DNA of 64,000 bases from assembly GCA_021741155.1 (NCBI GenBank), contig JAIOYP010000017.1:1-64000 (forward strand), in the 5' to 3' direction. Each line of letters opens with the position of its first letter. Positions within the stretch are counted from its first letter, which is position 1. A model generated the notes under the pieces. That model was not told where the DNA came from, searched no databases, and saw nothing but the letters and a program-made list of their open reading frames with translations. Shown one piece after another: positions 3,313-49,226 of the stretch. A program made the translations under genes and the position numbers. The DNA is from Flavobacteriales bacterium. GTDB lineage: Bacteria; Bacteroidota; Bacteroidia; UBA10329.

Positions 3313-3549
3313 ATGAAAACTGCTGAACTAAAGAACATTCTCATTCATCGCATATCAGAAATTGATGATGTTTCCTTCTTAGAAGCGATACGGACCATTC
3401 TCGACTCTAAGACGGACAAAGAGGTTATTTCATTGACCGAAGCACAACTTGACGACATCCGAGCATCCAAAAAAGAGATAGCGGAAGGTTTATTCGTGGA
3501 GCAAGAAACCCTTGATAAGGACGTAGCGAAATGGCTCAGCGGAAAGTAA
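3313..3549 (+). CDS. Putative antitoxin of a ParE/RelE-type module
   Basis: A 78-residue, charged, mainly helical protein that lies directly before, and overlaps by 19 bases, a RelE/ParE-like toxin gene. This is the usual antitoxin-first order. The C-terminal half (ASKKEIAEGLFVEQETLDKD) resembles the toxin-wrapping tail of small Bacteroidota antitoxins of the addiction-module type, which bind and neutralise the toxin and may repress their own operon. The ATG at 3313 is preceded by a GGAG ribosome-binding site, and I prefer it to an in-frame upstream codon at 3271. No classic DNA-binding motif is obvious by eye. The antitoxin role is inferred mainly from context. Confidence 0.75.
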   Translation: MKTAELKNILIHRISEIDDVSFLEAIRTILDSKTDKEVISLTEAQLDDIRASKKEIAEGLFVEQETLDKDVAKWLSGK

Positions 3550-3830
3550 TCTGGTCGCCTAGAGCGCAAATACGCCTCTACGATATCCTCGAATATTTTG
3601 CACAGCGGAACAAAAGCCGTTCTTATTCTGCCAAGCTCTACCGAACATTCACCAAAGAACTTGCCTTTGTCAGCAAACAACCCGACATAGGCATCCGAAC
3701 AGAATTGGACGACATTCGGGGTCTTATCGTTGGAGATTACATCCTTTTCTACGAAACCACTCCGGACCAAATCATTGTCCACACACTCTGGGACTGTCGG
3801 CAAGACCCGAACAGTTTGAAGATAAAATAA
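3531..3830 (+). CDS. RelE/ParE superfamily toxin
   Basis: This 99-residue basic protein has the features of the RelE/ParE fold. The N-terminal VIWSPRAQIRLYDILEYF segment is the usual first strand and helix. A central region with KQPDIG and RTELDDIRGLIVGDYILFYE gives the conserved Arg and the GDYxLFYE strand. The end is the IIVHTLWDCRQDP strand typical of ParE-type toxins. Members either poison gyrase (ParE) or cleave ribosome-bound mRNA (RelE); the sequence alone does not decide which. The start overlaps the antitoxin gene by 19 bases, so translation is probably coupled. The whole module sits between two copies of the murF-alr 3' end. Confidence 0.85.
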   Translation: MAQRKVIWSPRAQIRLYDILEYFAQRNKSRSYSAKLYRTFTKELAFVSKQPDIGIRTELDDIRGLIVGDYILFYETTPDQIIVHTLWDCRQDPNSLKIK

Positions 3831-3847
3831 AGGCGTAGGTCTGGCTA

Positions 3848-3959
3848 GGAACGGGTGAAGCGGGTTTATTATCAGGAGTAGGGGCTTCGGGATAGCACAC
3901 TGATTCTCGCGATGCTCGAATACACGGGTCGGACGGATGAACACTGATTTAGGGAGTCT
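3848..3959 (+). repeat. Direct repeat, right copy (duplicated murF-alr 3' end)
   Basis: Second copy of the 112-base segment. It still encodes the last residues of MurF-Alr and its stop (one change, Phe to Tyr) but has no reading frame leading into it, so it is a non-functional duplicate. Its position directly behind the toxin stop suggests that the toxin-antitoxin cassette came in, or was copied, together with the gene end. Confidence 0.85.
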
Positions 3960-4134
3960 GTGGATAGTTGCATGCAGAGAAAAGGAGGGTGAGAGAATCG
4001 CTACGCTCTGGGGATGATTGGAACATTGATTCTCGCAATGCTCGAATACACAAATGAGCTCAAACAACAGCCATTTATCGCTGTGGCACAGACGGATTGA
4101 AGCCGAAATATTGCTTGGATACCATCTGTGCGCC

Positions 4135-4405
4135 CGTACCGTAGCCAAGCACTTGCCGCAGTGCATATTGGGCAGGCGTACCGCACTCAGGCATTTGCCG
4201 CAGTGCATGTTGGGAAGACGTACCGCATTCAGGCACTTGCCGCAATACATGTTGGGTAAACGTATCGTACTCAAGCACTTGCTGTAATGTATGTTGGACA
4301 GACGTACCGAACTCAAGCATTTGCCGCAATAGAAGATTGGTAAACGTACCGTACTCAGGCACTTGCCGCAATGCATAGTGGGCAGACGTACCGCACTCAA
4401 GCAAT
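4135..4405 (+). repeat. 42-bp minisatellite, six full units plus a partial one
   Basis: Head-to-tail units start at 4135, 4177, 4219, 4261, 4303 and 4345, with a partial unit from 4387. Each starts CGTACCG and contains ACTTGCCGCA. Units differ from one another at several positions, so the array is not a recent expansion. The length of 42 is a multiple of three, so frames stay open on both strands through the array. On the minus strand one frame would read a 14-residue repeat containing CGKCL. No start signal or coding bias outside the repeat supports a protein. The array ends about 47 bases before the next gene. Confidence 0.9.
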
Positions 4406-9399: not shown

Positions 9400-10305
9400 A
9401 TGCGAATAAAAAAGTGTATTTATTGGTGTGGATATTTCTAAAGATTGGCTGGATGTTGCTATTTGTGCCGATGTCACAGAGCCGGTCACAGAAGTGTTTC
9501 AAGTGGAGAACAACCTCAAAGGCATCGGCAAGCTCATTAAGAAGTGTACAAAACTCAAGCTCCGACCTTGGGTCTGTTATTCAGCCGTTCCGGCATTAGA
9601 GATTAAGAACTCCATTGGGGTGACACGTGGTAAAACTGACCGCGTTGATGCCATCAGAATAGCCGTCTATGCAGCCACACACGTTCACAAACTGAAGCCG
9701 AGCAAGCTACCAGTGCCGTTCTGTTACAATTGAAATCAACGCTCACCTATCGTAATCAGTTGGGCAATATGTCCCGTCAGTGGCAGAACATGCTCAAAAG
9801 CCACCAGATCTCAACGGCCGTGATCGATAACAAGAAGATCGTCAGAGACATCGGAAAACAGGTCGTACAGCTCAAAAAGAAGGTCGTTGTGCTTAAAGCC
9901 CAGCTCATGGAGCTTATCCATGGGCAGGCCAATCTGGCCAAGAAATAGGATCAAGCAATAACAGTCAAAGGCGTTGGGCCGATAATCGCTTCACAGATGC
10001 TTGTGTTGACCAACAACTTTGCATCGTTCGAGAACGCCAGGAAATTCAACTGCTATGCAGGTCTAGCACCTTTTGAACATAGCTCGGGCAGCAGTATAAA
10101 AAGCAAGACCAGAACCAGCCCACTGCGCAACCGCAAGACCAAAGCGCTTTTATTGAACCGGGCCAACTCTGCAGCCGTTCACGATACTGAACTACGTAGC
10201 TATTTTAAACGCAAGACGGGTGAGGGAAAACACAGAATGGTTGTTCTCAACGCCATCGCTTGCAAACTTGTTTATCGCATTTTTGCAGTGGTGAACAGAC
10301 CTTAG
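9400..10305 (+). pseudogene. IS110-family transposase, multiply broken
   Basis: The pieces align end to end with an IS110 DEDD transposase. First comes the RuvC-like N-terminus (GVDISKDWLDV, then VPALEIKNS and GKTDRVDA). A middle helical part follows, and then the C-terminal Transposase_20 domain (VKGVGPIIASQML to LYAGLAPFEHSSGSS-like FNCYAGLAPFEHSSGSS). It is dead by several lesions. One surplus A in the run at 9408-9413 puts the ATG at 9400 out of frame. About 25 residues are missing between WVCY and SAVPALE, which removes the motif with the catalytic Glu. One base is missing near 9700. A TAG stands at 9946. Open segments remain at about 9428-9733, 9730-9948 and 9997-10305. Confidence 0.88.
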
Positions 10306-10364: not shown

Positions 10365-10378
10365 GCCTGCCGGCAGGC
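10365..10378. repeat. Palindrome GCCTGCCGGCAGGC
   Basis: A perfect 14-base GC-rich palindrome in otherwise AT-rich intergenic sequence. It resembles dispersed CCTGCCGGCAGG elements of Bacteroidota and lies 60 bases after the IS110 remnant. Confidence 0.6.
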
Positions 10379-10381
10379 AGG

Positions 10382-10450
10382 GGTTTTCACAGAGAAAAGG
10401 AAAAATTTTCTGTGTCCATTCTGCGAATTCTGTGTTTCTGTGGCTATAAA
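10382..10450. repeat. Dispersed CACAGAG...CTGTGTTTCTGTGGCT element, copy 1
   Basis: CACAGAGAAAA (10388) pairs with TTTTCTGTG (10406) to form a hairpin, followed by two CTGTG repeats and TGTGGCTA. The same order of parts occurs at 59381-59442, and the tail also occurs at 28301-28337. It is therefore a short dispersed repeat of this genome, not chance. Confidence 0.6.
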
Positions 10451-10494
10451 AGTGTGTTTTCGAAAATACAGGTCATCATTTTTTTTAGTGCGTT

Positions 10495-10641
10495 TGCCCT
10501 GCAAGTTTCGCATTGAGTTGTGCCTAATTGGAAAAGCCCGTGTTTCTTTGGGAAAATCCTGTGCTAAATTGAAATAAACCCGCGCTTCTTCGAGAAAAAC
10601 ACGGGTTTCTTCGGCAAAAGCGGGAGTGTTCTAAAAAGTGT
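10495..10641 (-). repeat. Degenerate 21-bp tandem array downstream of the 10662 gene
   Basis: Units of exactly 21 bases begin at 10495, 10516, 10537, 10558, 10579, 10600 and 10621. The best conserved are CCCGTGTTTCTTTGGGAAAA, CCCGCGCTTCTTCGAGAAAA and CACGGGTTTCTTCGGCAAAA, while others keep only the CCTGTG...AAA outline. The array ends 21 bases from the stop codon of the minus-strand gene at 10662. No reading frame or spacer structure is associated, so it is not a CRISPR. Confidence 0.7.
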
Positions 10642-10659
10642 ATCACCCCTTTTTAGAAC
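10628..10659 (-). terminator. Hairpin after the minus-strand gene ending at 10662
   Basis: GTTCTAAAAAG and CTTTTTAGAAC form a perfect 11-base inverted repeat with a ten-base loop, immediately behind the stop codon. It is a good candidate for a terminator. It overlaps the last unit of the 21-bp array. Confidence 0.6.
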
Positions 10660-10661
10660 AG

Positions 10662-11255
10662 CTACTTGAAATTCTGGAACTTGCTCATCTTGTTCATGTG
10701 GGTCAACTTATTGAAGTAGTTACCCATGTTGACGGCAACTCCAAGCGCATGGCTATGATAGCCCGTGCCTTGAACATTCAAGTGAAAAAGATACCGAAAA
10801 GTTAGACTGCCTTTGAAAAACCACGTTCGAGCAGCCAACGTGGCGACAAATCCTGATGAAATATTTTCTCCATTTATCTGAACCCCGTACCCAACGCCTA
10901 GCCCCATTCCAATATCTGAACGAAAATCTCTTGTAGAATAATGACCGATATTGGCTTCTAGCACTGCGGGAATGTGGCCGTAGAAATAGGTCTTCTTAAT
11001 CCAAGTGTCTTTAATGTGAACTCCCAACGTGAGTGGCATGGTGGCCGCAAGCGAAAAATCTCCGTATTTGTTAACGAGATTTATCTGTGGATTGTAGAAA
11101 AGCCCAAATGCTGGAGACACGTTCTTCCTAATCATCAGAAGATGAGCCGATGCTCCAATGGAGTTTCTCCAACGGTCCTTTAGCGTTGCCTTTTTCTGCG
11201 CAAAACCAATGCTCGGAAGCATTAGAATGGCAATGAAGATTACCAGACGATTCAA
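10662..11255 (-). CDS. Hypothetical secreted, probably outer-membrane beta-barrel protein
   Basis: This 197-residue protein has a clear signal peptide (MNRLVIFIAILMLPSIGFAQ). The remainder alternates hydrophobic and polar residues with aromatic strand ends and many glycines (for example DIGMGLGVGYGVQINGENIS), as in small outer-membrane barrels of Bacteroidota. The last residues (KMSKFQNFK) show no T9SS sorting domain. I do not recognise a named family. It lies downstream of the giant T9SS cargo genes on the same strand, 64 bases from the nearest, so it may be the last gene of that transcription unit. A hairpin follows its stop. Confidence 0.7.
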   Translation of the reverse strand: MNRLVIFIAILMLPSIGFAQKKATLKDRWRNSIGASAHLLMIRKNVSPAFGLFYNPQINLVNKYGDFSLAATMPLTLGVHIKDTWIKKTYFYGHIPAVLEANIGHYSTRDFRSDIGMGLGVGYGVQINGENISSGFVATLAARTWFFKGSLTFRYLFHLNVQGTGYHSHALGVAVNMGNYFNKLTHMNKMSKFQNFK

Positions 11256-48556: not shown

Positions 48557-48703
48557 CAACCCAAATCCCAAAGCGGCACCACCCCAAAACCCTGCGGTCA
48601 CTCCGTAACTCAACGCGGAAGGTTCATAGATTAACGCGGTCACTGAGTAGAACGCTGCGGTCAGTCAATAACTCAACGCGGCATGCCGAAACCCAACGCG
48701 GCA
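48557..48703 (-). repeat. Degenerate 21-bp tandem array between nuclease gene and hexapeptide-protein gene
   Basis: Seven units of 21 bases begin at 48557, 48578, 48599, 48620, 48641, 48662 and 48683. Nearly all end in AACGCGG or a variant (CTGCGG, AAGCGG); CACTCCGTAACTCAACGCGG and CAGTCAATAACTCAACGCGG are the closest pair. The array reaches to within one base of the stop codon of the minus-strand gene at 48705. There are no spacers, so it is not a CRISPR. Confidence 0.8.
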
Positions 48704-48704
48704 G

Positions 48705-49226
48705 CTACTTCCCACTCGCATACCACCCCGAATACATCACATACTTACCGGCAATCGCTTTTAGCATTTCGGGAGCGGTAGTTGGGTCAAGTTGCTTCAC
48801 CTTCTTGGCAGGCGCACCCGCGTAGATGCAGTTGGGTTCGATGATGGTACCTTCAAGCACCACAGCCCCAGCCGCCACAATAGAACCTGAGTGCACCACG
48901 GCATCATCCATCACAATGGCGCCCATTCCTATCAAAACATTATCGTGCAGCACACAACCATGCACAATGGCGTTGTGCCCTACGGTCACATCATTGCCAA
49001 TACGAGTCGGATTTTTCTGATACGTGCCATGCACCACCGCCCCGTCCTGAATGTTTACCCTATCGCCCAGAATGAGGTGGTTTACATCGCCTCGCAGCAC
49101 GCAATTGTACCAGAAACTGCAATTGTCTCCCGCCACTACTTGGCCAATTAGTGTGGCATTCTCAGCCACAAAACAATCCTTTCCGAGTGTTGGCGTTACG
49201 CCATTTAACGTTCTAATAAGTCCCAT
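48705..49226 (-). CDS. Gamma-carbonic-anhydrase-like hexapeptide-repeat protein
   Basis: A 173-residue left-handed beta-helix protein of the YrdA/PaaY group. Hexapeptide repeats run through residues 15-140 (for example GDRVNIQDGAVVHGTYQKNP, GNDVTVGHNAIVHGC). Histidines in VVHGT, VGHNAIVHG are placed like the zinc ligands of gamma-class carbonic anhydrases. Homologues may hydrate CO2 or only bind metal. It probably forms a trimer in the cytoplasm. A 21-bp repeat array starts one base after its stop. Confidence 0.9.
   Translation of the reverse strand: MGLIRTLNGVTPTLGKDCFVAENATLIGQVVAGDNCSFWYNCVLRGDVNHLILGDRVNIQDGAVVHGTYQKNPTRIGNDVTVGHNAIVHGCVLHDNVLIGMGAIVMDDAVVHSGSIVAAGAVVLEGTIIEPNCIYAGAPAKKVKQLDPTTAPEMLKAIAGKYVMYSGWYASGK

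Follow-up and report, generated by a model that had tools for sequence, protein, structure and literature searches.

The window, a stretch of 64,000 nucleotides from a Flavobacteriales genome, contains on the minus strand, at positions 10503–10641, an array of about six degenerate 21-bp units that we term W1, recognized from the stack of its units, its block score and its consensus. The sense-strand consensus reads.TTTTccCaAagAAaC.CggG. Across 10495–10641 the identity at a lag of 21 bases is 0.50, the top value of all lags from 5 to 69, and the best block of five units, starting at 10528, has a mean unit identity of 0.59. When all the sampled intergenic DNA (97 kb) is shuffled 20 times under a first-order Markov model, the highest-scoring five-unit block reaches 0.49. 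Tandem Repeats Finder reports just 10519–10598, as 1.9 copies of 42 bp, catching the array only in part because its units are degenerate. There are no Rfam matches in the window.

W1 ends 20 bp from the stop codon of a minus-strand gene (10662–11255) encoding 197 amino acids with a signal-like N-terminus and no Pfam match, and the position behind a stop codon given in the sequence-only reading is therefore correct. Between this stop codon and W1, and extending into the last unit at the gene-proximal end, is a perfect 12-bp inverted repeat with a 10-nt loop (10627–10660, minus strand; arms 10627–10638 and 10649–10660). Two neighbouring units combine into a terminator-like stem of 14 pairs with a T-rich tail (10576–10608, minus strand); one such stem in W1 compares with a shuffle mean of 0.9, so there is no excess. 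The other end of W1 is abutted by an interspersed repeat of about 125 bp (10378–10502, plus strand), the terminal part of which, 10470–10502, is not array. Because the repeat reaches 10502, the first of the seven units counted earlier over 10495–10641, that at 10495–10515, is only partly array; the 21-bp array is real, with about six units. The interspersed repeat recurs in three further long copies at 90–94% identity, on C37, C40 and C36, all of them other contigs. It is of a CACAGAG type and MITE-like, with many partial copies as well and one end conserved over 33 bp. A broken transposase of the IS110 family, in two ORF pieces, is found at 9428–10305 on the plus strand. A link between W1 and this remnant was considered and rejected, since two other copies of the abutting repeat have no array in the next 167 bases.

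A companion array, W2, occupies 48557–48703 on the minus strand, with seven units and no unit dyad, and its lag identity peaks at 63, 42 and 21. The gene before it (48705–49226, minus strand) codes for a 173-residue hexapeptide-repeat protein according to Pfam, which we take to be gamma carbonic anhydrase-like. The W2 consensus is unlike that of W1, as had been proposed, and the patterns of W1, W2 and a further array, C1c, each occur at one locus, in this genome only, among nine genomes of the genus. W1 and W2 were searched for by sequence patterns and not by covariance models, since the alignment of overlapping windows was shifted by one unit. The proposed agreement in unit number holds for W1 (about six) and W2 (seven) and does not extend to the class, in which arrays have 4 to about 15 units. 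No 21-bp array follows, within 450 bases, the orthologues of the gene hosting W1 in five genomes of the genus and six more distant ones, or those of the gene hosting W2 in seven genomes of the genus. Arrays are thus not permanently tied to given genes.

Is the 21-bp unit general in this organism? The scan covered the window, which is positions 1–64,000 of contig 50, and 59 further stretches of this genome, in all 1,185,867 bases (1.19 Mb) or 31.6% of 3.76 Mb in 69 contigs, with genes called by our own hexamer-based caller (1008 genes, 90.7% coding). Unfiltered intergenic blocks of five units occur with period 21 at 18 places, with periods 19, 20 and 22 at none and with 23 and 25 at one each; periods 14 and 16 are also elevated (15 and 7), an excess owed mostly to simple repeats of 7 and 8 bp. 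When simple short-unit repeats are filtered out, period 21 is found in 10 of 417 gaps, period 13 in two, 14 and 28 in one each, and all other periods from 15 to 35 in none. The period-21 count is 9–10 under two slightly different filter rules, and the expectation from first-order Markov shuffles is 0.05. From two arrays alike in form and not in sequence, the sequence-only reading had suggested that some general process creates or maintains 21-base repeats behind genes; the scanned 31.6% of the genome supports this, as further arrays are present, no other period exceeds two gaps and other unit lengths are not equally frequent among non-simple arrays. By extrapolation the whole genome may hold some 30 period-21 arrays.

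The curated set excludes a block at window position 9812, inside the IS remnant, and four that are 7- or 14-bp repeats or of low complexity (L023 240, L051 3187, L051 18973 and L056 18941). L027 1774 and L051 5553 were retained, and L011 7501, of period 42, is outside the set. In the dyad, column, substitution and covariation tests two single arrays enter as halves, C36a/b and C60a/b, each half being one piece. Simple intergenic arrays with units of 7 bp (CCCGTAA and TTGTCTC types) and 8 bp (TTTGCTAA type) are also common in this genome, examples being L023 238–322, L051 17398–17468, L046 7433–7518 and L008 19206–19301.

Since 21 bp corresponds to seven codons, the arrays could be remains of coding sequence with a seven-residue repeat. 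The unit length is divisible by three and in some arrays, L026 for example, a frame is open over many units. All six frames of W1, however, are interrupted by stops, none of 14 array pieces has a codon phase in the variability of its columns (lowest p=0.066), and periods 15, 18 and 27, which are common within genes, are nearly absent from intergenic DNA. We consider a coding origin highly improbable.

The same filter applied to other genomes of the genus finds two arrays in 400 kb of G004 and three in 72 kb of G007, and none in the small samples of G008 (200 kb) and G005 (100 kb). With the array of G002 described below, period-21 arrays are present in G000 (the genome studied here), G004, G007 and G002. 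In other families G047 has one and G028 none, and periods 17, 22 or 23 are equally frequent there; outside the genus, in these two genomes, period 21 is not special. Within the sampled DNA, W1 is a member of a genus-restricted intergenic class with a fixed 21-bp unit, equal to two helical turns, in which every array has its own consensus.

Placement was assessed for 15 curated arrays of three species, 11 from G000 and two each from G004 and G007; outside this set are the G002 array and, for being simple or weak, L123 of G004 and L160 853 and L160 2030 of G007. Nine of the 15 lie within 50 bp of the 3′ end of a gene, compared with 2.95 expected from random placement in gaps (p=0.0017) and 5.2 if each array stays in its own gap (p=0.008). 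The corresponding figure for 5′ ends is 3 of 15, with 4.2 expected. Location behind genes is a preference in the DNA sampled so far and not a rule: C1c and C22 are in divergent gaps and C55 is far from any gene.

Whether each array has its own consensus was addressed by 171 comparisons of 19 array pieces. Strong likeness is confined to the halves of single arrays and to one cross-species family, the sole one known; weaker pairs, such as C60b with a G007 array, beat 60 of 60 permutations, uncorrected for multiple tests. Private consensuses are therefore general, with the exception of this one unit family common to three species. Its TTCCGATWGRAAT unit, that of the contig 36 array, occurs at one locus each in G000, G004 and G002, by pattern and by profile. 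The profile was made from those three arrays, with 150 of 643–2060 candidates scored per genome and some genomes incomplete. The unit occurs in none of the 386 genomes of other genera in a class sample of 395. The neighbours of the three arrays are unrelated: an ammonium transporter in G000 and a thiolase in G004 (both Pfam), with a presumed hexapeptide-type protein as the other G004 neighbour, whilst in G002 one gene starts a few tens of bases from the array and another, presumably acyl-carrier-like, is further off. Unit identity is 0.58–0.61 between species and 0.60–0.65 within arrays. Fourfold-degenerate sites of the ammonium transporter agree with those of G000 at 0.32 in G002 and 0.40 in G004, where random agreement is 0.26, and silent sites are near saturation between these species. 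In G002 a single intergenic gap (L167) contains both the TTCCGATWGRAAT-family array (1480–1752) and a perfect TGTCGCT heptamer array (1795–1900).

Three unrelated loci for one family could mean that arrays are themselves mobile elements, or travel with one, the unit being carried along. The ammonium-transporter gene that flanks the G000 array is at places other than that of the array in G002 and G004, and W1 itself abuts an interspersed repeat near an IS110 remnant. Against this, two other long copies of that repeat are array-free, as described, no common ends between arrays are seen, and a multi-locus family is known only once. Mobility of this kind appears improbable.

How the units vary bears on whether they are copies of one another or separately maintained. 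Over 11 arrays the mean identity is 0.52, 0.50 and 0.50 at lags of 21, 42 and 63, and there is no signal at sub-periods of 7, 10 or 11 bp. Distant units are as alike as neighbours, and this is unlike stepwise duplication. Taken singly, W1, C1a and C1b depart from the mean in that unit identity falls with distance, in W1 through 0.51, 0.45, 0.44, 0.36 and 0.14. Conservation is more uneven across columns than uniform decay predicts (Fisher p 8e-7, 15 array pieces), most strongly in long arrays; W1 alone has no significant column heterogeneity (p=0.40) and by itself is too short for proof of constraint. Of the changes from consensus 113 are transitions and 200 transversions, close to the 1:2 of random change. 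The controls are 20:7 for the interspersed repeat and 8:10 for an IS piece, and the array ratio differs from the former (Fisher 1.5e-4) and from both together (1.0e-3). Taken together with the identity between species, the patterns in distance, columns and substitutions are those expected of independently constrained sites and not of young, freely decaying duplicates; in the longer arrays, conservation is unit by unit, unlike that of decaying duplicates. Two particular origins were rejected, one from 7-bp repeats, as there is no lag-7 or lag-14 signal, and one by mutagenesis of A as in diversity-generating retroelements, as A, C, G and T mutate at similar rates (0.17–0.22).

A neutral account would have a lineage-specific mutational or replication process duplicate DNA in steps of 21 bp, that is two turns, with arrays surviving where they are harmless. 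It accommodates a single unit length with unrelated sequences, positions that are not conserved, the restriction of the W1, W2 and C1c patterns to single loci in the genus, the fall of W1 identity with distance and, as tolerance, the 3′ preference. It is less easily reconciled with the level identity of the pooled arrays, their heterogeneous columns, the missing transition bias, and one consensus at different loci of three species whose silent sites are near saturation. We nevertheless hold neutral duplication, the leading alternative to the explanation given below, to be a serious possibility, short of an even chance, because W1 is short, its identity does fall with distance and private consensuses would need many readers.

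A unit dyad stronger than in column-permuted copies is present in 10 of 13 pieces, W1 among them (p=0.015); the dyad is not significant in W2 (p=0.66), C1b (0.275) and C1a (0.07). Fold energies are lower than those of column-permuted copies in 12 of 13 pieces, and W2 folds worse than permuted. The arrays might then act in RNA, as rows of small hairpins in the 3′ untranslated region that end transcription or protect the message. This would fit the 3′-end preference, the fold energies, and the terminator-like stem and gene-proximal inverted repeat of W1. Compensatory changes, however, are no more frequent than expected (381 as opposed to 375.9, p=0.26, with the register picked blind to linkage), nor are they seen in the TTCCGATWGRAAT family; an earlier excess, 358 over 332.2, was discarded as biased since the register had been chosen on the same data. 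The poor folding of W2, a terminator count not above shuffles and the arrays in divergent gaps also speak against such a role, which we judge unlikely. The dyad is kept by sequence and not by pairing, and so is better matched by half-sites of a protein than by stems in RNA.

The best explanation, which we advance tentatively, is that the arrays are iteron-like rows of sequence-specific protein sites two helical turns apart, the units of each held to the consensus of that array. The binder would be an oligomeric DNA-binding protein, or a different protein for each array, contacting the same helix face at two-turn intervals, with each unit separately selected toward the array consensus. The arrays may sit mainly just behind genes because promoters and reading frames are undisturbed there. 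We count in favour of binding sites that period 21 stands out alone and that the TTCCGATWGRAAT consensus is kept in three species at unrelated loci. Counted against them are the lack of column heterogeneity in W1 and of a dyad in W2, the fall of W1 identity with distance, positions not conserved between species, the single cross-species family, the want of more than chance-like matches in plasmid and phage records, and the IS control (8:10), in which the transition bias is nearly as weak as in the arrays. A private consensus per array would also need many proteins.

Comparisons with known systems inform on this reading. Plasmid iterons are tandem direct repeats of some 17–22 bp that bind Rep proteins, with near two-turn spacing, a degenerate, system-specific consensus and often partial dyads. 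The arrays resemble them as tandem direct repeats of period 21 with no sub-period, a private consensus and frequent dyads, but are chromosomal and many per genome. Pfam identifies no replication initiator gene among the host genes of W1, W2 and two TTCCGATWGRAAT-family arrays. A plasmid or phage origin was rejected, the matches in plasmid and phage records being only short and chance-like, with E up to 1, and a single pattern scan of viral contigs gave nothing. REP and BIME elements are intergenic, bear dyads and are often found at gene 3′ ends, all of which the arrays share (the last as a preference), but have one consensus over hundreds of copies per genome, whereas the arrays are private and contiguous with a fixed 21-bp period, W1, W2 and C1c having one locus each in nine genomes. 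Bacterial minisatellites or VNTRs are likewise tandem and spacerless, but their unit length varies by locus; non-simple intergenic arrays here are nearly all of 21 bp, with units just about 50% alike. CRISPR arrays have a similarly regular tandem spacing; in the present arrays the units are contiguous, the whole 21-bp period being repeat, with no unique spacers. In the titles and abstract openings of the open-access literature we found no description of 21-bp intergenic arrays with a private consensus in Bacteroidota.

More speculatively, the genus may possess an unnamed class of dozens of iteron-like arrays per genome, each with a private, selected consensus and its own cognate factor, and mobile between species while keeping that consensus; we regard this broader proposal as doubtful. 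Such arrays might serve, for instance, as decoys or sites of incompatibility toward certain replicons, or as nucleoid anchors. The usual bacterial intergenic repeats share sequence, as REP elements and MITEs do, or nothing, whereas these arrays share length alone, two turns of the helix. A common length with differing sequences points to a physical ruler, be it the spacing of a protein or a duplication machine. The length of the unit makes helical phasing a testable prediction, and the TTCCGATWGRAAT family provides a consensus with which to retrieve the putative binding protein.

Two tandem repeats of 42 bp were also noted. One, with 6.4 copies, is in the window at 4135–4403 and spans the last part of a minus-strand ORF (3345–4400). 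The other, in G007 (L157, 13756–14007), is near-perfect, unlike the degenerate G000 arrays, and fills a gap between co-oriented genes.
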